Shown here piece by piece: positions 41,258 through 55,891 of a stretch of 64,000 nucleotides of DNA (positions within the stretch are counted from its first letter, which is position 1; each line of letters opens with the position of its first letter). Made by a program: the position numbers and the translations under genes. Under the pieces are notes generated by a model that was not told the origin of the DNA, made no database searches, and was given only the letters and a program-made list of their open reading frames with translations. Source of the DNA: Natrialba asiatica DSM 12278 (GTDB taxonomy: Archaea; Halobacteriota; Halobacteria; Halobacteriales; Natrialbaceae); contig NZ_AOIO01000020.1 of assembly GCF_000337555.1 (NCBI RefSeq), forward strand, positions 1 to 64,000. The letters run 5' to 3'.

Positions 41258-42325
41258 CTAGAACTCGGTACAGACCGGGATACCCAGGGTGTCGTACTCG
41301 CCGAGGCGGTCCATCACGTCGGGCACGTCCTCGAGCGAACAGGTTTCCGTGACGATCGTTCCCGGATCGATCGTCCCCGCCGTCATCATCCGGAAGATTT
41401 CGTCGTACTCGTTCGGCGGCATACCGTACGAGCCGTAGAACTCGCGTTCGTCGGTGACCATCGTATCGATCGGCACGGCGATCTCGCCGGCCTCGTCCGA
41501 CGTCGTCATCCCGATCTGGAGGTGCTGACCGCCCTTTCCGAGCGAGTTCACCGAGTTTTGAACCGTCTCCGCGACGCCGAGGGCGTCGATCGAGACGGCG
41601 ACGCCGCGACTCCGCTCGGTGTGGGCTTTCACGGCCTGCGGAACGTCGTCGACGGCCGTCGCGTCGACGGTCTCGACGGCACCGACTTCCTCGGCCATGG
41701 CGAGTTTGTCGGCGGCGATGTCGACGGCGATCACGTTCGCGCCGAGCGCGCTCGCGACGTGGGTCGCGGAGAGTCCGACGCCGCCGCAGCCGTGGACCGC
41801 AACCCAGTCGCCGGCGGTGACGTCCACGCGGTGAACGACGCCGTGGAAGGCGGTGGCGAACCGACAGCCCAGACCCGCGACTTCCGCGGCATCGACCGAG
41901 TCGGGAACCTGAACGAGGTTCTGGTCGGCGTTTCGAACCGGGTACTCCTCGGCGAAGGCACCCTGCTGGAACGGGACGAATCCCATCGGAACGGACCGTT
42001 CGCAGATGTTCGCCCGTCCCGCTCGACAGTGGGGACACGTCCCGTCGCTCAGGTTGAACGGATTCGTCACGCGGTCGCCCTCGCCGACGCGCTCGACGTT
42101 CTCGCCGACCTCGACGACGCGACCGACGGGTTCGTGGCCGAATATCAATCCCGGCGACGGGACCAGTCCGATCCAGTCCCAGTCGCCCTGCCACGCGTGC
42201 CAGTCGCTCCGACAGATGCCGCAGGCTTCGGTCTCGACGACGACGCCGTCCGGCTCGCACTCCGGCCGATCTACGTCCTCGACCGCGAGCGGTTCGTCCA
42301 CGCCCTGGAACACGACTGCTTTCAT
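41258..42325 (-). CDS. Zinc-dependent alcohol dehydrogenase
   Basis: A 355-residue MDR-family NAD(P)-dependent dehydrogenase. Zinc site: Cys in EACGICRSDWHAW and HEP in FGHEPVGRVVEVGENVE. The structural zinc loop reads DGTCPHCRAGRANIC, so the first of the four usual Cys is Asp. Rossmann motif HGCGGVGLSATHVASALGA near residue 180. A TATA box TTAATTTTAT at 42351-42360, centred about 29 nt before the ATG, gives a leaderless start at MKAVVFQG. It is separated by 120 bp from the ALDH gene on the same strand. Confidence 0.9.
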   Translation of the reverse strand: MKAVVFQGVDEPLAVEDVDRPECEPDGVVVETEACGICRSDWHAWQGDWDWIGLVPSPGLIFGHEPVGRVVEVGENVERVGEGDRVTNPFNLSDGTCPHCRAGRANICERSVPMGFVPFQQGAFAEEYPVRNADQNLVQVPDSVDAAEVAGLGCRFATAFHGVVHRVDVTAGDWVAVHGCGGVGLSATHVASALGANVIAVDIAADKLAMAEEVGAVETVDATAVDDVPQAVKAHTERSRGVAVSIDALGVAETVQNSVNSLGKGGQHLQIGMTTSDEAGEIAVPIDTMVTDEREFYGSYGMPPNEYDEIFRMMTAGTIDPGTIVTETCSLEDVPDVMDRLGEYDTLGIPVCTEF

Positions 42326-42445: not shown

Positions 42446-43999
42446 TCAGCCCATCTTCGGAACGCCGCCCAGATTCACCTTCACCGTCTTCACCTGCGAG
42501 TATTCCGCGAGCGCCTCTTCGGCGAGTTCACGTCCCGTCCCGCTTTCCTTGTAGCCGCCGTGGGGTGCCGGATCGAAGAGGTCGTTGTAGGTGTTGATCC
42601 AGACCGTCCCCGCCTCGAGTTCGGCGGCGAACTCGTGGGCCGTTCGGAGGTCTTCGGTCCAGACGCCCGCGGCGAGGCCGTAGGACGTGTCGTTCGCTCG
42701 TCGAAGGACCTCCTCGGGGTCGCGCCACTCGAAGACGGAGAGTACGGGGCCGAACACCTCCTCGCAGCCGATGCAGTCGTCGTCGCCGACGTCGGTCAAC
42801 ACCGTCGGCCGAACGAAGGGTGCTCCCTCGAGTTCACCTTCGATCCCGCCGGTTCCACCGGCGGCAACCGTCGCGCCCTCGGCGACGGCCGTCTCGACGT
42901 ACTCGCGAACGCGCTCCCGGTGTGCGTGGTCGATCATCGGTCCGACGTCCGTCGCGGGGGCGAGCGGATCGCCGACGACGAGGCCGGCGACGGCATCGCG
43001 AAGGCGTTCGATGAACTCGGCGGCGATGTCTTCGTGGAGGTACAGCCGCGAGCCGGCGGTACACTGCTGGCCGGAGTTGAAGAAGATACTCACGAGCGTC
43101 CCCTCGATCGCCCGCTCGAGATCGGCGTCGGGGAAGACGATGTTCGGACTCTTGCCGCCGAGTTCGAGCGAGGTCGGCGTAATCGTCTGTGCGGCGTTCT
43201 CGAGGGTTGCGACGCCCGCCGCGCGCGAGCCGGTCAGACTCAGTTTGTCGATGTCCTCGTGAGAGGTCATCGCTGCCCCGACCGCGTCGCCGGTACCGGT
43301 GACGACGTTGACGGTCCCCGGCGGCAGCACTCGGTCGCAGATTCGCGCGACCGCGAGGGAGGAAAGCGCGGCTCGCTCGGAGGGCTTGAAGACCACCGCG
43401 TTGCCGGCTGCAAGCGCCGGGCCGAGCTTCCACGCGACGAACATCGCGGGGAAGTTCCACGCGGAGATCGCGCCGACGACGCCGTAGGGCTCCCGGTGCG
43501 TGAAGACGCGTTTTTCGTCCCCCGTCGGGACGACGCGCCCTTCGTCGGTCGAGCGCGCGAGCGCCGCGAAGTGGCGGAACTGCTCGACCAGCACCTCGCA
43601 GTCGACAAACAGCGCGTGGAGGTTCGGCTTCCCGGTCTCGAGGCTGTCGAGTTTCGCGATTTCCGTCGTCCGACCTGCCAGCCGATCGGCGATCTCCCCG
43701 AGTCGGTCGGCCCGTTGTCCGGGCGTGAGCTGTCCCCAGCTCCCCTCGACGGCCGCCCGTGCGGCCTCGACGGCCCGGTCTACGTCCTCGGGAGTGCCGC
43801 GTTGTACGGTCGCGAGTTCAGCGCCCGTCGTCGCGTCGATGGCGACGCCGTCCTCGCCCGTCGCGGCGTCGACCCACTCGCCGGCGATCAGGTGCCCGTA
43901 CCGCTCGCGCGAGACGACCGTCTCGGCCGCGGCCCGGTGGCGTTCGCGGACGGCGTCGCTCACCTCGTAGCGCGCCCGGTCGTAAAACTGCTCCTGCAT
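42446..43999 (-). CDS. NAD(P)-dependent aldehyde dehydrogenase
   Basis: A 517-residue aldehyde dehydrogenase that oxidises an aldehyde to an acid. Seen are the cofactor motifs AWNFPAMFVAWKLGPALAAGN and LTGSRAAGVATLEN, the general base Glu in PTSLELGGKSPNIVF and the catalytic Cys in FFNSGQQCTAGSRL. The C-terminal YGLAAGVWTEDLRTAHEF and YNDLFDPAPHGGYKESGTGRE are typical. Adjacent Zn-alcohol dehydrogenase and R2lox-type oxidase suggest a chain oxidising an alcohol or hydrocarbon-derived aldehyde. The N-terminal ATG is at 43999. Confidence 0.92.
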   Translation of the reverse strand: MQEQFYDRARYEVSDAVRERHRAAAETVVSRERYGHLIAGEWVDAATGEDGVAIDATTGAELATVQRGTPEDVDRAVEAARAAVEGSWGQLTPGQRADRLGEIADRLAGRTTEIAKLDSLETGKPNLHALFVDCEVLVEQFRHFAALARSTDEGRVVPTGDEKRVFTHREPYGVVGAISAWNFPAMFVAWKLGPALAAGNAVVFKPSERAALSSLAVARICDRVLPPGTVNVVTGTGDAVGAAMTSHEDIDKLSLTGSRAAGVATLENAAQTITPTSLELGGKSPNIVFPDADLERAIEGTLVSIFFNSGQQCTAGSRLYLHEDIAAEFIERLRDAVAGLVVGDPLAPATDVGPMIDHAHRERVREYVETAVAEGATVAAGGTGGIEGELEGAPFVRPTVLTDVGDDDCIGCEEVFGPVLSVFEWRDPEEVLRRANDTSYGLAAGVWTEDLRTAHEFAAELEAGTVWINTYNDLFDPAPHGGYKESGTGRELAEEALAEYSQVKTVKVNLGGVPKMG

Positions 44000-44234: not shown

Positions 44235-44540
44235 TCACAGCGCGTCGAGACCGAGTAGTTCGTTCTGGACGCGCTCGCCCACCCGAATCTCACAGTCCGC
44301 TCGCGGGGACGAACAACACAGCAGCACGTAGCCGTCGGCCTCCTGGTCCGGCGTGAGCGCCGTCCCGCCACCGTCGAGGTCCCCCGCGAGCAGTTCGCCG
44401 GCACACGAGGTACACATGCCGTTCCGACAGGAGTGGGGCAGTTCGAGTCCGGCTCGCTCGGCCGCGTCGAGGACGAACTCGTCGGGGGCGACCTCGATCG
44501 TCTCCGTCCCGTCCTCGAAGTAAAACGTGATCTCGTACAT
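44235..44540 (-). CDS. Plant-type [2Fe-2S] ferredoxin
   Basis: A 101-residue ferredoxin with the Cys pattern HSCRNGMCTSCAG (C-x4-C-x2-C) near residue 38 and the fourth Cys in LLCCSS near residue 75. It has no long haloarchaeal insertion, so it is a short dedicated ferredoxin rather than the abundant halophilic one. It is the third gene of the operon R2lox - small acidic protein - ferredoxin with a 6-nt gap and is the obvious electron donor for the R2lox protein. Confidence 0.9.
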   Translation of the reverse strand: MYEITFYFEDGTETIEVAPDEFVLDAAERAGLELPHSCRNGMCTSCAGELLAGDLDGGGTALTPDQEADGYVLLCCSSPRADCEIRVGERVQNELLGLDAL

Positions 44541-44546
44541 CTCCGT

Positions 44547-44903
44547 TTAGATCCGCTGGCGAAGCTCGTACAGTTCCAGCGCCTCCAGGCGCGGATCGCC
44601 GGTCCCCACCTCGTCGTGATCGAGACTGGTGCCGCTGATACTCTCGTTGAACGAGGTGCTGACGCCCTCGTCCTCGAACGTCGAATCCATGATGTAGGCG
44701 ACGTTCTCGCGGACCTCGTCGGCGCTCTGGCCGAGTTCGGCGGCGGCGTCCTCGATCGCCTCGGCAACCTCCTCCTCCGTAGCGGTGAACTCGGCTCCGC
44801 GCGCGAGTTCGGTTAGTTCGGTCGGTTCGGTGTCCGCGTCGGTCGCAGTGGCGGTGTCGGCTGGCGCATCAGTCGCGTTCGTGGGGTCCGCGTTGTCCGT
44901 CAT
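44547..44903 (-). CDS. Small acidic protein between R2lox and its ferredoxin
   Basis: A 118-residue acidic protein. The N-terminal 30 residues are an Asp/Thr/Ala-rich disordered stretch. The middle is helical (EEEVAEAIEDAAAELGQSADEVRENVAYIMDSTFEDEG) and the C-terminus LEALELYELRQRI. I do not recognise a domain. It lies 1 nt from the R2lox stop and 6 nt from the ferredoxin start, so it may be an accessory subunit or assembly factor. That is inference from operon position. Confidence 0.8.
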   Translation of the reverse strand: MTDNADPTNATDAPADTATATDADTEPTELTELARGAEFTATEEEVAEAIEDAAAELGQSADEVRENVAYIMDSTFEDEGVSTSFNESISGTSLDHDEVGTGDPRLEALELYELRQRI

Positions 44904-44904
44904 A

Positions 44905-45963
44905 TTATCGCCCTCCGTCGGCCGCGGCTTCGACGCCGCGCTTTCGCTGGTACAGGTCCCGATACGTCCGAACCGCGTCGTCGATGTCCCTCTCGAGACA
45001 CTCCTGGTGGCGGTCGGCGACGCGGCCGACGACGGTCCGGTGGTCCATGTCGAGATCGAGCGCTTCGTTGAACTGGCCGTCGATGAGGTGTCCGACCCGC
45101 ATCAGGAGGTCGTTAAAGTTGATTTCGAGCGGATCGTCGACGGCGTCCGTGAACATGTAGCCGAAGTCCGCGACCGCCGGGACGTTCTCGTACAGAACGT
45201 CGACGATCGCCTGGCTGACTCCCTGGAACTCGGGTTCCCCGGCGCGTTCCTTCGCGATGAGTTCGGAGAGCGCTTCGACGCCGTGGGTCATGTGTCGTCC
45301 CTCGTCGGTGCTGATGAACTTGAACCCGTGATTCAAAAGCGGTAGCGGCGCGTTCCGGGAGAGTTTGTTGATCGAGTAGAAGCCGCCGCGAGCGAGCAGT
45401 CCCTCGACGATCATGTGGTAGACCGTCAGCGCCTTCGCGATGTCGACCGGGTCCCTCGAGTGGGCGGCCCTGGCCGTGAGTTGGCCCTGCCGATCGAAGA
45501 TTTCGCCGAGGCCGGTCGCCTGGACGATCGGGATCCGAGCGCCGCCGCGTTTCGGGTTGAGGTCGGCGAACACGTCCTGCTCGCCCATCACCTCGTGCAT
45601 GTACACGTCGAGGAACTGCGTGTGCTTGTGCTCGGTCAGGGTGAACATCGTCATGTACATCTCCATCTCCTCGTTGTCGTCGAAACACGGCGCGCCCGCG
45701 ATGCGCTGGAGGTGGTGACTCGCATCCTCGCCGACGGCGAACTCGCCGTCAAGGAATCCCGACAGCAGGTATCGAATCTGCTTTCGCTCGCCGGGTTCGA
45801 GCGATTCCCAAATCGCTCGGTCCTCCTCGAAGCCGACCTCGTCGAACAGTTTTTCGACGTTCCACGTCCCGAGCTCGACCCCCTTCTGGAAGAGGTCGTA
45901 CCACTTACTCGAGGTATCGATCCGTTCGGCCTGGAATCCTGACTGTGTGGTAGATTGTGACAC
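44905..45963 (-). CDS. R2lox-type ferritin-like metal oxidase (R2-like ligand-binding oxidase)
   Basis: A 352-residue protein of the ribonucleotide-reductase R2 fold. Metal ligands can be placed as E74, E111, H114, E187, E221 and H224. V77 and Y182 then match, by spacing from E74 (+3) and E187 (-5), the Val-Tyr pair that forms the ether cross-link in R2lox. So it is an R2lox rather than a true ribonucleotide-reductase subunit; no large subunit is near. R2lox proteins hold a Mn/Fe centre and bind a long-chain lipid. The reaction is unknown. It is the first gene of a three-gene operon with a small acidic protein and a ferredoxin. Confidence 0.87.
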   Translation of the reverse strand: MSQSTTQSGFQAERIDTSSKWYDLFQKGVELGTWNVEKLFDEVGFEEDRAIWESLEPGERKQIRYLLSGFLDGEFAVGEDASHHLQRIAGAPCFDDNEEMEMYMTMFTLTEHKHTQFLDVYMHEVMGEQDVFADLNPKRGGARIPIVQATGLGEIFDRQGQLTARAAHSRDPVDIAKALTVYHMIVEGLLARGGFYSINKLSRNAPLPLLNHGFKFISTDEGRHMTHGVEALSELIAKERAGEPEFQGVSQAIVDVLYENVPAVADFGYMFTDAVDDPLEINFNDLLMRVGHLIDGQFNEALDLDMDHRTVVGRVADRHQECLERDIDDAVRTYRDLYQRKRGVEAAADGGR

Positions 45964-46153: not shown

Positions 46154-46870
46154 TCAGAACAGGTGCCGCGCGTCGGTCTCGCCGGCGACATCACCCATCG
46201 CCGCCGCCGCATCCCCGTAGTGAAGCACTCGCGTCACGTCCCCGTCGAGCGCCATCTCGTTCGACATCACCGACTCGATCACGTCGGCACCCTCGACGAG
46301 TTCGGACCAGGTCTCGTAGGGCGCTTCGAGTTCGAATCCCGGATCGCGAGCCGACGGATCGGCGACGAGTTCCGCTCGCTCGCAGTCGCCGTCTTCGAGC
46401 GCGAGATGGGCGTACACCGTCGATCCGTCGACGACGTACGCCTCCAGTTGTGCGAGCAGTGACTCGAGGTCGCCCCGAATATGCGTCTCGAGCGCCGGCC
46501 AGACGACGGTCGGCACGTCGGCGAGCGCGACGGTCGAGAGTGCCCGTCGGAATCGAACTCGTTCGTCGTCGTCGTTGCCGTCGCCGTCGGCGGCGGCGAA
46601 TCGCTCGTCGAAGGCCGGCGTCGCCGTCTCCCGTAACCGATCGAACTCGGTGGCGGAGAGCGCGTCGATCCGGTCGAATAGCTCGGCGGTCAACGCGTCG
46701 GGAAGGTCGCCGAGCGTCGTCTCTTCGAGGGGAAGGTGCGTCAGGACGAAGCGGAAGTCGCCGTCGAAACCGACGCCCCAGCCCTCGCTCGCCGCCGCGT
46801 ACGCGTCGTCTTCGGCGAGGTTCCTGCGGTAGCTCTCGAGCCATTCTTCGGACGGAAACCAGTCGGCCAT
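46154..46870 (-). CDS. SCP2-like (sterol-carrier-fold) acidic protein, paralogue 1
   Basis: A 238-residue protein starting MADWFPSEEWLESYRRNL. It has GWGVGFDGDFRFVL, an alpha-helical middle with a Gly/Asp/Asn-rich insertion near 95 and DGDCERAELVADPSARDPGFELEAPYETWSELVEGADVIESVMSNEMALDGDV, an SCP2-type lipid-binding pattern. A clear paralogue is encoded head to head at 47093-47866. Members bind acyl or sterol-like ligands. The exact ligand is unknown; the lipid-oxidation neighbourhood suggests carriage of an acyl or hydrocarbon compound. Confidence 0.75.
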   Translation of the reverse strand: MADWFPSEEWLESYRRNLAEDDAYAAASEGWGVGFDGDFRFVLTHLPLEETTLGDLPDALTAELFDRIDALSATEFDRLRETATPAFDERFAAADGDGNDDDERVRFRRALSTVALADVPTVVWPALETHIRGDLESLLAQLEAYVVDGSTVYAHLALEDGDCERAELVADPSARDPGFELEAPYETWSELVEGADVIESVMSNEMALDGDVTRVLHYGDAAAAMGDVAGETDARHLF

Positions 46871-47018: not shown

Positions 47019-47092
47019 GCAAACGAAGTTTACGGCCACCGCCCGTGATAAACCCCCTCGTATACCCGGAGAAATCACAACAAGAGTTCACA

Positions 47093-47866
47093 ATGAGCAC
47101 AGTTCTAGATCGGGTCCACCGCGGCCCGGAAACCCAGATGAGCACGCAACAACGCCGACCGATCGAACAGTACTTCCCGACGGAGCCGTGGCTCGAGCAG
47201 TACCGCGCGGCGATCGACGAAAACGACGCCTACGCCGACCACTCGGCCGGGTGGGGCGTCGACTTCGACGGCTCGTTCGTCTTCCAGATCGAGGCCGTTC
47301 CGCTCGACTCCACGACGGTCGCCGACCTCCCGTCCGAACTCGTCGAGTCGGTCGAAGACGACCTCTCCGCGCTCTCCGACGACCGACTCGAAGCGGTTCT
47401 CGAACAAGCGCCGGCGGGTGCCCGAGAGCGCATCGAGTCCCGCAACGGTTCGCTCGAGGAGCGCGTTACCGCCGAGGTTCGAGGGACGACCATGGCGGCG
47501 CTTCCCGATCGTACCTGGCCGGCGCTCCGGACGGAACTGCCGGCCAACCTCGACGAACTGATACCCCAACTCGAGGAGAACGTGGCCGACGACGGCACGA
47601 TCTACGCGTATCTCGAACTCTACGACGGCGAGTGCGAATCGGTGGATACGATGCTCGACCTCGACGACCGAGAGCACGGCTTTCGACTCATCGGCGACTA
47701 CGACACCTGGACCGACCTCGTCCGCGGCGAGGGCGACGTCATCAACATGCTGATGTCCGGCGAGTTCGAGATCGACGGCGACATGCAGAAGATCCTGCAG
47801 TACTCCGACGCGGCGGTCGATCTCGCGGAGATCGCCGCCGACGTCGACACGCGATTCATCTTCTGA
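47093..47866 (+). CDS. SCP2-like acidic protein, paralogue 2
   Basis: A 257-residue protein related to the divergent gene at 46154-46870: YFPTEPWLEQYRAAIDENDAY matches WFPSEEWLESYRRNLAEDDAY, and both end in TD-R-LF or -TRFIF. The SCP2-type region includes YDGECESVDTMLDLDDREHGFRLIGDYDTWTDLV. The start at 47093 follows a TATA-like CGTATACC at 47056-47063; a later ATG at 47138 (MSTQQRRPIEQYF) would match the paralogue length more closely. Function as carrier or chaperone of hydrophobic substrate is inferred. Confidence 0.75.
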   Translation: MSTVLDRVHRGPETQMSTQQRRPIEQYFPTEPWLEQYRAAIDENDAYADHSAGWGVDFDGSFVFQIEAVPLDSTTVADLPSELVESVEDDLSALSDDRLEAVLEQAPAGARERIESRNGSLEERVTAEVRGTTMAALPDRTWPALRTELPANLDELIPQLEENVADDGTIYAYLELYDGECESVDTMLDLDDREHGFRLIGDYDTWTDLVRGEGDVINMLMSGEFEIDGDMQKILQYSDAAVDLAEIAADVDTRFIF

Positions 47867-49051: not shown

Positions 49052-50257
49052 TCAGTACGCACTCATTCCGGTCAGTTCCTTGCCGACGATGAGCTTCTGG
49101 ATCTCGGTCGTTCCGTCCGGGATCGTCATTACCCGGGCGTCGCGGTAGTACCGCTCCATCCGGTTCTCGAGATCGAGCCCCGCGGCACCGAGAACCTGGA
49201 GCGCGTCGCTCGTCGCTTCGATCGACTGCTCGCAGGCGTAGCCCTTTGCGAGCGACGAGAGCAATCGCGCGTCGGGGTTGCCCTCGACGAGCGCCTCGGC
49301 GGCGCGCCGCGAAAGACCCCTCGAGGCTTCGATCGCCGCCCGAACGTCGTAGAGTTTCTCCTGTACCAACTGATGCTGCGCGATCGGGTCGCCGAACGTC
49401 TCCCGATCCTGGGCGTAGGCGAGCGCGTCGTCGAACGCGGCCTGCATGATCCCGACGGCCATGAACGCCATCCCCGTCCGCATGAACGAGAACATCACGT
49501 TCAACGGCTTGTGCTCGAAGAAGAGTTGACTGACGCTCTCCGGGAACGGCACGATCTCGGAGATGTCGTGGCCGTCGGCGATGGCGTCGCCGAAGATCGT
49601 CGAAAAGCGGTTCTCGACCGGAACGCGAACGTCGTCGAACGTCATGCGGCCGTTCGGGACGCCCTTCCAGCCCAGTTTGTTCATCTCCTCGGTTTCGAAG
49701 TCGGCGTTCGCCCGGTCGACCAGGAACAGGTCCTGAACGTCCTCCGATGCGTCGTGAGCGACGACGAGCGCAACGTCGGCGATCTGGGCGTTACCGACCC
49801 AGACCTTCTCGCCGTTCAGCACGAACGCCTCGCCGTCCTTGCGCGCGACGGTGTTCGGGTGGGCCGTATCGCTGCCGCCTTCGGGTTCGGTCACCGCGAG
49901 ACAGCCGATACACCGGTTCTCTTCGAGTTTCGGCAGCATCGCCTGTCGCGTCTCGTCGGCCGCAAACCGGACGAACAGCGCCGGAAACGACATCTGCAGG
50001 GCGACGTTCAGACTCGGCCAGACGCGGCTGATCTCCTCCGAAGCGATGACGAACCGCCAGACGTCCCCGAAGTATCGGTGGACCGTAGCCGGTGTAAAGC
50101 CGATCCCGAGTTCTTGAAGATCGTCGAGGTAGCCCACGAGTTCGTCCCGGGTCATCGGCCCGTTGCGATCCGCCTCGTCGACGATCGGCTCGATTTCGGT
50201 TTCGAGGTACGTTCGGAGGTCATCGCGAAACGCCGTCTGGTCGTCGGTCAGGCGCAT
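49052..50257 (-). CDS. Acyl-CoA dehydrogenase family protein
   Basis: A 401-residue FAD protein of the acyl-CoA dehydrogenase fold: N-terminal helical domain, CLAVTEPEGGSDTAHPNTVARKDGE around residue 120-145, KVWVGNAQIADVAL, and the C-terminal part with DARVMTIPDGTTEIQKLIVGKEL. In well-known acyl-CoA dehydrogenases the catalytic Glu lies in YEGT; here that position is Asp (PDGT). It starts directly after the SCP2-like stop (TAA-ATG) so they are co-translated. It likely oxidises an acyl-CoA in the lipid-oxidation neighbourhood; chain length unknown. Confidence 0.9.
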   Translation of the reverse strand: MRLTDDQTAFRDDLRTYLETEIEPIVDEADRNGPMTRDELVGYLDDLQELGIGFTPATVHRYFGDVWRFVIASEEISRVWPSLNVALQMSFPALFVRFAADETRQAMLPKLEENRCIGCLAVTEPEGGSDTAHPNTVARKDGEAFVLNGEKVWVGNAQIADVALVVAHDASEDVQDLFLVDRANADFETEEMNKLGWKGVPNGRMTFDDVRVPVENRFSTIFGDAIADGHDISEIVPFPESVSQLFFEHKPLNVMFSFMRTGMAFMAVGIMQAAFDDALAYAQDRETFGDPIAQHQLVQEKLYDVRAAIEASRGLSRRAAEALVEGNPDARLLSSLAKGYACEQSIEATSDALQVLGAAGLDLENRMERYYRDARVMTIPDGTTEIQKLIVGKELTGMSAY

Positions 50258-50836
50258 TTACGACTCCGCGGATGCGGGAACCTGGTCGGACAGCGAGTTC
50301 ATGATCGGTGCGAGGCGGGTGCCTTTGTGGACCGGGCCGTCCATCTGGTACTGCTGTTGCATGAACCCCTGAATCGGATCGACGCGGCCGACGATGAGCC
50401 CGACGAGCGTGTCCGCCGGGCCGGTGATCTCGAGCATCGGGTCGTCGAGCGTGCCCGCCCCGCCGGTCATCGTCTGCTCGGTCCCGTCGACCTCGAGGTG
50501 GCCGGCCATCGGGCAGTCCTCGGCCTCGAAATTGACGGTGATGTCGTCGTCGATGCTTTCTTTCACCTCGGGTGAACTCTCGACGAGGACGTTCATGCCG
50601 GCCCAGAGCAGTTCCTGGAACTGATCCGCGGTCTCGGGGTTCTCGGAGACGAACGATGCGATGTCCATCGTCTCCATCCGCGCTACCACGCGGCCGAACG
50701 TCTCTGGGTGCTCGCGGACGAGATCCTCGGTCTGGCCCTCCATTCGGCCGAGCAGTTCCGGGAGGTCGTCTTCGAGTTCGTCGTCGGATTGCTCGAGCGA
50801 TGCGTCGATGTCCTGAATCAGGTCGGTGTCGGTCAT
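50258..50836 (-). CDS. SCP2-like protein, paired with acyl-CoA dehydrogenase
   Basis: A 192-residue acidic protein: helical N-terminal half (about 1-95), then SPEVKESIDDDITVNFEAEDCPMAGHLEVDGTEQTMTGGAG and the SCP2-type sheet with GPADTLVGLIVGRVDPIQGFMQQQYQMDG. Members bind long-chain acyl groups. The stop codon abuts the acyl-CoA dehydrogenase start, showing a strict pairing. It is a third SCP2-like gene within 5 kb, more distant in sequence from the divergent pair. The start MTDTDLIQDID is chosen at 50836. Confidence 0.8.
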   Translation of the reverse strand: MTDTDLIQDIDASLEQSDDELEDDLPELLGRMEGQTEDLVREHPETFGRVVARMETMDIASFVSENPETADQFQELLWAGMNVLVESSPEVKESIDDDITVNFEAEDCPMAGHLEVDGTEQTMTGGAGTLDDPMLEITGPADTLVGLIVGRVDPIQGFMQQQYQMDGPVHKGTRLAPIMNSLSDQVPASAES

Positions 50837-51010
50837 GGGTATCGAGTCGGGGCTCACGACGGGGTGAGTCCCGGTGGTAGTCAATAGGGAACACCCGACG
50901 AACAGTGTGATCCGTGGAATGCGCGGATGTTTATAATGGTCACCGTGACGGTCGGCGAACGATCACGGCGACGGGAGGGTGTTTCGAAGGCGAATTTCGG
51001 CGGGCGGCGC

Positions 51011-52431: not shown

Positions 52432-54120
52432 TCAGCCGTCCGCCTCGGTCGTTGCGTCCTCTCGGAGCGCCTGCTTGTCCGTCTTTCCAATGTCGGTGAG
52501 CGGGATCGACTCGACGAACGTTACCGTCGACGGGAGGGCCTGTCGTGGCACCGTGCCCTCGAGATGGTCGCGAACGTCCTGTTCGGTTACGTCCGCATCC
52601 GGTTCCGGTTCGATGAAGATGCGGACGCGCTCGCTGCCCGGCCGCTCCGGATCGGGGACGCCGACCGTGGCCGGTCGTTCGACGCCCTCGAGACCGTACA
52701 GGATCTCGTCGACTTCCTCGGAGTAGACCTTCAATCCCGAGACGTTGATCATGTTCTTGATGCGGTCGACGACGTAGAACCGACCGCTGGAGTCGACTTT
52801 CGCGATGTCGCCCGTGGCGACGTACCCCTCCTCGTCGAACGGGTCTTTCCCCTCGTCGAGATATCCCGTCATCCGCTGTGGGCCCTTCACGAGGAGTTCA
52901 CCCTCGAGTTCGTCATCGACGGCGCGGTCGATCGGAATCGCCTCGCCGGAGTCGATATCGCGGAGTTTGACGCTCGTGTCGGGAACCGGAATTCCGATGG
53001 TCGGATGGTCCAACCCGTCCTCGCTCTCACCGCCGGCGAGGAGTTCGTAGAGTCCGTGAACGTCGAAGTGGGTGATCGGGGACATCTCCGAGAGGCCGTA
53101 GCCCTGGGACACGCCGCCGGCCTCGCGTTCGAACTGGGACTTCGTCTCGACCGCGAGGGGAGCGGAGCCGGAGATGCCGACGACCGAGGATGCGACCTCC
53201 TCGTCGACCAGTTCCATGAACTGGGTCGGCACGCCGAGCATGAGCAGCGGTTCGTGGCGCTCGACCAGTTCGCGCATCTGCACCGTATCCCTGGCGTCGG
53301 GAACGACCAGCATATCGAGTCCGAGTTCGAGCAGGCTGTTCGTGATCGAGTAGCCGTAGGCGTGATACATCGGCAGCGCCATCACGGCCGCCTCGCTGCC
53401 GCGCATCGCCGTCGCCAACTGGGACTGCACGGCGACGCCCTGGAGCGCGTTCGCGACGAGATTCCGATGGGTCAGCAGACACCCCTTGGGTAAGCCGGTC
53501 GTCCCGCCCGTGAACAACAGCGTGTGTCCGTCCGTTTCGACGCTGAACTCGACGGTGGGCGGGTCCGGCTCCGTCGCGTCGATGACCGGGCGGAGCCGTT
53601 CGGCTCCGTCGATCGCCTCTCGCTCGCCCTCGTCCGGCGGGTCCGCCGAGTAGTCCTCGAGCGACGTCAGGAGCACGTGCTCGAGTTCGAGTTCAGTTTG
53701 GAGCGACCGGATGAGATCGATGTGTTCGTCGTGGCCGATCAGTACGTCGGGGTCGCCTTGCTCGAGTCGGTAGACGAGGTCGTCCTCGGCGTCGAGGAAG
53801 TCGTTCGGGATGTGGACGCCGCCGGCCCGCGAGATGGCGTGGGTGGCGACGACGAACTGGACGGATGTCGGGAGGATCGTTGCGACTCTGTGGCCCTTCT
53901 CGATGCCGCGCTGGCGCAGCGCCGTCGCCAGTCGGTCGACGTCATCGCGGATGTCGGGGTAGGGGAATCGCTGGCCCAACTGGACGATCCCCTGCGCCGG
54001 ATGGTCGTCTGCGGCGTCGTACAGGAACTGATGAACCGGCTCGTCGGGATAGGGCTCGAGTGACTCGGGGATGCCGAACCGTTCGTACGCCGCCGTCCAG
54101 GGTGTCGCGTCTCGGGACAT
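52432..54120 (-). CDS. Acyl-CoA synthetase / AMP-dependent CoA ligase
   Basis: A 562-residue adenylate-forming enzyme that activates a carboxylic acid to its CoA thioester. Seen are the P-loop LLFTGGTTGLPKGCLLTH near residue 213, YGLSEMSPITHFD, ATGDIAKVDSSGRFYVVDRIKNMINVSGLKVYSEEVDEI and the C-terminal catalytic Lys in IGKTDKQAL. It would feed acids made by the aldehyde dehydrogenase to the acyl-CoA dehydrogenase. Its specific acid is unknown. The start MSRDATPWTAAYERFG is conserved in tone with the family. Confidence 0.92.
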   Translation of the reverse strand: MSRDATPWTAAYERFGIPESLEPYPDEPVHQFLYDAADDHPAQGIVQLGQRFPYPDIRDDVDRLATALRQRGIEKGHRVATILPTSVQFVVATHAISRAGGVHIPNDFLDAEDDLVYRLEQGDPDVLIGHDEHIDLIRSLQTELELEHVLLTSLEDYSADPPDEGEREAIDGAERLRPVIDATEPDPPTVEFSVETDGHTLLFTGGTTGLPKGCLLTHRNLVANALQGVAVQSQLATAMRGSEAAVMALPMYHAYGYSITNSLLELGLDMLVVPDARDTVQMRELVERHEPLLMLGVPTQFMELVDEEVASSVVGISGSAPLAVETKSQFEREAGGVSQGYGLSEMSPITHFDVHGLYELLAGGESEDGLDHPTIGIPVPDTSVKLRDIDSGEAIPIDRAVDDELEGELLVKGPQRMTGYLDEGKDPFDEEGYVATGDIAKVDSSGRFYVVDRIKNMINVSGLKVYSEEVDEILYGLEGVERPATVGVPDPERPGSERVRIFIEPEPDADVTEQDVRDHLEGTVPRQALPSTVTFVESIPLTDIGKTDKQALREDATTEADG

Positions 54121-55139: not shown

Positions 55140-55245
55140 CCCGGTCACAGCCTTAGCCCAGTCTCAGACTCAGCCCAGTTTCAGCCACAGCCACAGTCTC
55201 GGTCTCAGTCACTATCTCAGCCTCAGTTACAGTCTCGACCTCAGG
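55140..55245. repeat. Degenerate (C/T)TCAG hexamer repeat
   Basis: About 14 units such as TCTCAG, ACTCAG, TTTCAG, CCACAG, TCTCGG, CCTCAG and TTACAG fill the gap between the SDR stop and the end of the bat-type regulator. The period is 6 bp and the units drift at most positions. It has no ORF of significance. It may be decaying simple-sequence DNA. Confidence 0.6.
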
Positions 55246-55891
55246 GAACGATCTGCGAAAGGAGTTTCGCCTCGATTTTTCGCAGGTGACCGCCGACCGT
55301 ACCGCCCGTACACCCGAGTTCATCTCCGATATCCGCGTGTGTCACCTCCCGCGGAACGTTGTAGTATCCCATATCGACGGCAGTCTCGAGGATTTCCTGT
55401 TGCCGATCCGTGAGCTGTGAGAACAACCGATCCGTGTTCGGCTCGTAAGTCCCCGTCTTGAGGAGTTTGATCCGAATCCCGTCGGGAACGTCCGGAATCG
55501 CCTGCTGAAAGCTCCCTACGTCGCCGATCATCGTCACGCGCAATCCCCCACGTCGCGTGTACTCGAGGGGCGTATCGAAGATGAACTCGAACTCGCGGAA
55601 CATGCTCAAGAGCCCCACGAGCCTGTCGTGGGCTCCGACGTGGATGTAGGCGTGAATTGCGTCATCTGCCTTCGAAAGGTGGTACATGCGAACCATCTTC
55701 GAATCCGTCAGAATCGACTCGAGCGCCGCTGCATCACCGGACAGTTGATAGAGCGTGACGATCGTATCGTCGGCGAGGAGATTGACGTTGTGGAGGAGTT
55801 CACGCGCGATATCGGGATGATCTGCAATTTGCTGGTCGACGGGGTGTAACCCCTCGTCGTCCGGGATAACGATGCACTTTGCGTATCTCAT
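55241..55891 (-). CDS. Bat-type helix-turn-helix regulator
   Basis: A 216-residue regulator of the HTH_10 family. The C-terminal part LTDRQQEILETAVDMGYYNVPREVTHADIGDELGCTGGTVGGHLRKIE is the DNA-binding domain. The N-terminal 160 residues are a sensor-like region with a hydrophobic core pattern but no known ligand site. Target genes are unknown; the methyltransferase next to it is the nearest candidate. The start MRYAKCIVIPDD is plausible. It is the second member of this family in the window (see 3175-3879). Confidence 0.88.
   Translation of the reverse strand: MRYAKCIVIPDDEGLHPVDQQIADHPDIARELLHNVNLLADDTIVTLYQLSGDAAALESILTDSKMVRMYHLSKADDAIHAYIHVGAHDRLVGLLSMFREFEFIFDTPLEYTRRGGLRVTMIGDVGSFQQAIPDVPDGIRIKLLKTGTYEPNTDRLFSQLTDRQQEILETAVDMGYYNVPREVTHADIGDELGCTGGTVGGHLRKIEAKLLSQIVP

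Follow-up and report, generated by a model that had tools for sequence, protein, structure and literature searches.

A haloarchaeal clade of R2lox-related proteins encoded with a small acidic protein, a plant-type ferredoxin and an SCP2-like neighbor

Described R2lox proteins and the gene row in Natrialba asiatica

R2lox proteins have been studied for more than 15 years, and their electron donor, partners and substrate are little known. They oxidize their own scaffold, forming a Val-Tyr cross-link (as described in a passage of PMC6399176), and Y175 of G. kaustophilus R2loxI (GkR2loxI) is a conserved residue of the R2lox ligand cavity (PMC4118035). A 2024 paper (PMC10867098) reports that GkR2loxI acts as an alkane monooxygenase, consuming C10-C22 alkanes in crude lysate, and that its gene cluster includes an alcohol dehydrogenase (ADH), an aldehyde dehydrogenase (ALDH), a CoA ligase and an acyl-CoA dehydrogenase. 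The same paper cites Kumar et al. 2020 for the up-regulation by hexadecane of an R2lox gene in the haloarchaeon Halorientalis, and it records no aldehyde deformylating oxygenase activity for purified MtR2lox and SeR2lox. An earlier, sequence-only reading of the DNA analyzed here had stated that R2lox proteins have no known reaction, which has been out of date since the GkR2loxI report.

We analyzed a 64,000-nucleotide stretch of the Natrialba asiatica DSM 12278 genome (contig NZ_AOIO01000020.1; here, the window), in which an R2lox-related protein that we call R2F is encoded in a tight minus-strand row with SM, a small acidic protein, and with a plant-type [2Fe-2S] ferredoxin (Table 1). The gaps between the three genes are 1 and 6 nt, and the open reading frames are those that the sequence-only reading had described as tightly packed.

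Table 1. Genes of the R2F module and its surroundings in the window
Feature	Coordinates	Strand	Remarks
Zinc alcohol dehydrogenase (ADH)	41258..42325	-	downstream of aldehyde dehydrogenase
Aldehyde dehydrogenase (ALDH)	42446..43999	-	downstream of module; in 9/36 loci
Plant-type [2Fe-2S] ferredoxin	44235..44540	-	101 aa; C-x4-C-x2-C...C
SM, small acidic helical protein, no known family	44547..44903	-	118 aa
R2F, R2-fold dinuclear metal oxidase/oxygenase (predicted), R2lox-related clade	44905..45963	-	352 aa; GTG start
SCP2-like lipid-carrier homologue	46154..46870	-	directly upstream of R2F; conserved neighbor
Second SCP2-like family copy	47045..47866	+	divergently transcribed; true start probably internal ATG (MSTQ...)
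Acyl-CoA dehydrogenase	49052..50257	-	same family in 21/36 loci
SCP2-domain protein	50258..50884	-	abuts acyl-CoA dehydrogenase; same family in 22/36 loci; start 50857 possible
AMP-binding acyl-CoA ligase family protein	52432..54120	-	

Active site and phylogenetic position of R2F

We aligned the window R2F with Mtb R2lox (3ee4), GkR2loxI (4hr0) and E. coli NrdB/NrdF. Residues E74, E111, H114, E187, E221 and H224 align with the metal ligands of the two R2lox proteins, V77 and Y182 align with their Val-Tyr pair, and none of these positions varies across 34 relatives. The column of Tyr122 of E. coli NrdB holds Leu in the window R2F and Leu, Val, Ile or Phe across the relatives. No ribonucleotide reductase (RNR) large subunit is encoded near R2F; a single large-chain match exists in the genome, and it falls on a different contig. 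The six ligands, the V77-Y182 pair and the lack of a neighboring large subunit had all been claimed from the window, and each claim is borne out by these comparisons. Identity as a class I RNR R2 is excluded by the non-Tyr residue at the Tyr122 column together with the absence of NrdA or NrdE nearby. The nearest solved structures, by sequence and by fold, are R2lox; for the AF2 model (pLDDT 88.8), the top 31 Foldseek matches are all R2lox, and RNR R2 ranks behind. The alignment thus supports a predicted active site that is R2lox-like and other than that of RNR R2.

R2F matches PF00268 at 45 bits, and its best score against the curated NCBIfam models of R2-like ligand-binding oxidases is 99 bits, under the cutoff of 194. 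The cavity Tyr corresponding to Y175 of GkR2loxI is absent from the window R2F, where F195 is aligned instead; the column is Phe in clade 1 (the group of the window), mostly Ala, Ser or Gly in clade 2, and Tyr in clade 3. In a maximum-likelihood tree of 64 proteins, 35 R2F relatives group in one haloarchaeal clade (support 100/100, stem 2.14), and other R2lox lineages fall outside it, including an R2-like protein of the window's own genome (G000:C17). Because the tree program warns of long branches, the attachment point of the R2F clade among R2lox lineages is unsure.

Compared with Mtb Rv0233, GkR2loxI and SaR2loxII, R2F is alike in its fold, six ligands, Val-Tyr pair and lack of a radical Tyr, and in that acyl-CoA and alcohol genes are often near. 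It differs in its sequence (approximately 30% identity, under all curated cutoffs, in a clade of its own), in the replacement of Y175 by Phe, Ala, Ser or Gly in clades 1 and 2, and in having an obligate SM, a linked plant-type ferredoxin and an SCP2-like neighbor. The R2lox-type assignment of the sequence-only reading therefore stands for the fold, the ligands and the Val-Tyr pair, but R2F falls short of the curated R2lox scores and forms a separate, related clade, and the window protein has another residue in place of the cavity Tyr. With class I RNR R2 (NrdB/NrdF), R2F shares the R2 fold, and E. coli also has an adjoining [2Fe-2S] ferredoxin gene, yfaE; however, R2F has no radical Tyr, carries Val and Tyr in place of the RNR residues, and is encoded with a different partner and with no large subunit nearby.

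Other R2-like genes were observed in the sampled genomes. Besides R2F, the window's own genome encodes a standard R2lox that has neither SM nor ferredoxin (L079, G000:C17:79000-88000), and three or four R2-like genes are present in some haloarchaea. On a Streptomyces plasmid (L101 2851-3840), an R2-like protein whose gene adjoins an enediyne chromoprotein gene keeps the metal ligands and has Gly and Phe instead of the Val-Tyr pair.

Conserved partners and metabolic setting

Our survey covered archaea from a single phylum, together with plasmids and viral contigs, and it reached bacterial chromosomes through one pattern-based search for close relatives. Of 394 Halobacteria genomes, 29 carry R2F-type matches (at least 44% identity). 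The SM profile detected 33 copies in the same 29 genomes, each adjoining R2F, and in a 394-genome sample of the phylum SM is confined to R2F-bearing genomes. Considering 36 distinct loci, SM lies directly downstream of R2F in all 36, ferredoxin comes next in 33, and 30 have an SCP2-like gene at most two genes upstream or four genes downstream. R2F is always encoded with SM, nearly always with ferredoxin and usually with an SCP2-like gene. The three-gene linkage proposed from the window is therefore conserved in relatives, whereas its description as a three-component system left out the SCP2-like protein as a fourth component, and the neighboring ADH, ALDH, acyl-CoA ligase and acyl-CoA dehydrogenase genes had also gone unnoticed. 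Neither of the two outcomes named in advance as refuting the sequence-only reading, a radical Tyr in the alignment or a lack of conserved linkage, was observed. SM, plant-type ferredoxin and the SCP2-like family were all absent within roughly 2-4 kb on each side of 24 R2lox loci outside the R2F clade (19-20 haloarchaeal and 5 plasmid-borne), and passages on R2lox and ferredoxin in the open-licence literature do not describe the R2F-SM-ferredoxin arrangement.

On a Rhodococcus plasmid (L106 339-3909), genes for an alcohol dehydrogenase, an FAD oxidoreductase, an FdxA-type ferredoxin and a standard R2lox stand in a row. These likely form an electron chain for that R2lox, which would be an independent parallel to the R2F module, with a ferredoxin of a different type.

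SM had been described as a 118-residue protein of unknown family, and our family searches gave nothing convincing. The best profile match in the PDB (SHERP, E 0.1) is at chance level, and Pfam matches to Trigger factor C and other families are weak and differ from member to member. An MmoB-type effector was rejected as a candidate, given that Pfam returned no MmoB_DmpM match. With a dN/dS of about 0.15-0.3, SM is under purifying selection and is a real gene; its conserved part is the C-terminal ~90 aa, with the motifs TASDEEV, VAYIMDS, NE.VSG and DPRLEALELYKLR. The structural model, a helical hairpin at low confidence (mean pLDDT 63.6), has two helices, then a disordered stretch, then a C-terminal helix. 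The aligned members have no invariant Cys or His, which makes metal or cluster binding by SM unlikely. Viral contigs contained no SM, and plasmid-borne copies were detected in Natronococcus only.

The window ferredoxin scores above the TIGR02008 cutoff, in agreement with its earlier identification as plant-type, and gives a weak match to the YfaE model (E 2e-7, under cutoff). It had also been called dedicated; given that it is absent at three loci and SM at none, its tie to R2F may be looser than that of SM.

In total, the window locus encodes three SCP2-like proteins beside ADH, ALDH, acyl-CoA dehydrogenase and acyl-CoA ligase genes. The profile of the SCP2-like neighbor family matches the SCP2 structures 1wfr/2cx7 at E 3e-12, and PF02036 matches 14 of 27 members (best 1e-8); taken alone, the copy at 46154 is below the Pfam SCP2 cutoff and the copy at 47045 is above it. 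Among 125 genomes of the window's own family, 18 carry full-length SCP2-like copies, 16 of them with R2F. The gene is not exclusive to R2F genomes, as it is also present in G176 and G711, which lack R2F. G176 retains the acyl-CoA locus, including one SCP2-like copy. From this we infer that such a copy is part of the acyl-CoA locus, whereas the one upstream of R2F belongs to the module itself.

In clade 3b, which comprises one genus, R2F-SM adjoins cobalamin genes (L044 3434-4760, L046 4721-6047, L067 5507-7141). In two genomes, where the ferredoxin is missing, these are chelatase-like MoxR/VWA, CbtA and CbiX genes; in the third, where the ferredoxin is present, the neighbor is a CobQ-like gene.

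A candidate oxygenase system and its alternatives

Our best reading, which we consider reasonably probable, is that the module encodes a ferredoxin-fed dinuclear (Mn/Fe or Fe/Fe) monooxygenase that oxidizes a lipid or hydrocarbon, with SM as a coupling or assembly subunit. R2F, SM and ferredoxin would be subunits of one O2-activating enzyme system. The R2lox-like scaffold of R2F would hold the dinuclear Mn/Fe or Fe/Fe site, and the [2Fe-2S] ferredoxin would supply two electrons per turnover. SM would dock on R2F, where it may gate substrate or electron entry or assemble the cofactor. The SCP2-like protein would deliver a hydrophobic substrate for a reaction that is likely hydroxylation of a lipid or hydrocarbon, and in the window genome the product could then pass through ADH, ALDH, acyl-CoA ligase and acyl-CoA dehydrogenase. 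The multi-component enzyme probably oxidizes lipids or hydrocarbons, making the R2F clade a candidate family for such oxidation in halophilic archaea. With somewhat less than even confidence, we suggest that the system could represent a new class of multi-component monooxygenase with a dinuclear, possibly Mn/Fe, site and a lipid or hydrocarbon substrate. Its R2lox-like oxygenase would rely on a dedicated ferredoxin and on a small coupling protein from a new family, and the class would be an R2lox-type system with a partner set readable from the genome. Because the clade brings a fixed set of partners, reconstitution of the four proteins could directly test what such enzymes do.

The monooxygenase reading draws on the invariant ligands and V77/Y182, the missing radical Tyr and the closeness of R2lox structures; on the strict co-occurrence of R2F and SM, the ferredoxin linkage and the absence of these partners at other R2lox loci; on the SCP2-like neighbor at 30 of 36 loci; and on the Rhodococcus plasmid context and the GkR2loxI alkane report (in passages of PMC10867098). 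The sequence-only proposal of an oxygenase with its own electron donor thus remains the best account, given linkage at 36/36 loci for SM and 33/36 for ferredoxin. Against the monooxygenase reading are the R2F-SM pairs without ferredoxin (three loci) or without an SCP2-like gene (six loci), the two loci beside cobalamin genes, and the low-confidence SM model, which gives no function. In addition, the GkR2loxI assay was done in crude lysate, and MtR2lox and SeR2lox were inactive as aldehyde deformylating oxygenases (both from passages of PMC10867098). Only some R2F loci have ADH and ALDH alongside; therefore, the substrate pathway may differ between clades.

The main rival to the monooxygenase reading is cofactor maintenance, in which ferredoxin and SM would assemble or repair the R2F cofactor and R2F itself would have a single-turnover or lipid-sensing role. 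YfaE, encoded directly 3' of nrdB in E. coli, offers a precedent for maintenance beside NrdB (Wu et al. 2007, as cited in a passage of PMC8463856), and the weak YfaE match of the window ferredoxin, the loss of ferredoxin at three loci and the self-oxidation of the R2lox scaffold (in a passage of PMC6399176) are consistent with it. We nevertheless regard it as rather unlikely, because the ferredoxin, above the TIGR02008 cutoff and below that of YfaE, is a better fit to plant-type electron carriers, no such ferredoxin occurs at the other sampled R2lox loci, and the recurrent SCP2, ADH, ALDH and acyl-CoA genes indicate metabolism.

R2F could instead work as a desaturase or as a two-electron oxidase of another kind, with acyl or isoprenoid lipids bound to a carrier as its substrates; it might then serve, for instance, the synthesis of membrane or storage lipids and not hydrocarbon breakdown. 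SCP2-like proteins adjoin the module, the acyl-CoA dehydrogenase could be biosynthetic or degradative, and a desaturase role has been put forward for R2lox (PMC4118035). However, the ADH and ALDH beside the module in the window's own group better fit an alcohol product, and no fatty-acid synthesis genes were seen nearby, which leaves this alternative distinctly unlikely. It is highly improbable that R2F ancestrally oxidized a tetrapyrrole or cofactor and acquired its lipid setting secondarily. In two clade 3b genomes R2F-SM comes after chelatase-like and CbtAB genes, and in a third it shares a region with a cobyric acid synthase-like gene, but all three genomes belong to a single genus, the ferredoxin is missing in two of the three cases, and lipid-type neighbors occur at the great majority of loci.

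Soluble methane monooxygenase (sMMO) combines a dinuclear hydroxylase with a small partner protein and a [2Fe-2S] electron carrier. The resemblance of the proposed R2F system to bacterial multicomponent monooxygenases of this type is a works-like analogy of component roles: R2F would act as a single R2 subunit from one gene and not as a two-subunit hydroxylase, its carrier has no FAD reductase domain, and SM is not recognized as a member of the MmoB family. A parallel among Mn/Fe monooxygenases is AibH2/SfbO (PF04909), for which passages of PMC10401708 and PMC10811679 describe C-H hydroxylation and a co-encoded small iron-sulfur protein; that family is unrelated, and its partner is a Rieske protein whereas R2F has a plant-type ferredoxin.

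Regulators of the HVO_0513/HTH_10 type recur near the R2F module at 12 loci (for example, window 55241-55891, L045 4257-4940 and L009 4497-5150) and may control it. In a genus without R2F (L108 3706-7643), members of the same ALDH and ADH families are accompanied by a short SCP2-like protein and by a gene resembling an HTH regulator.
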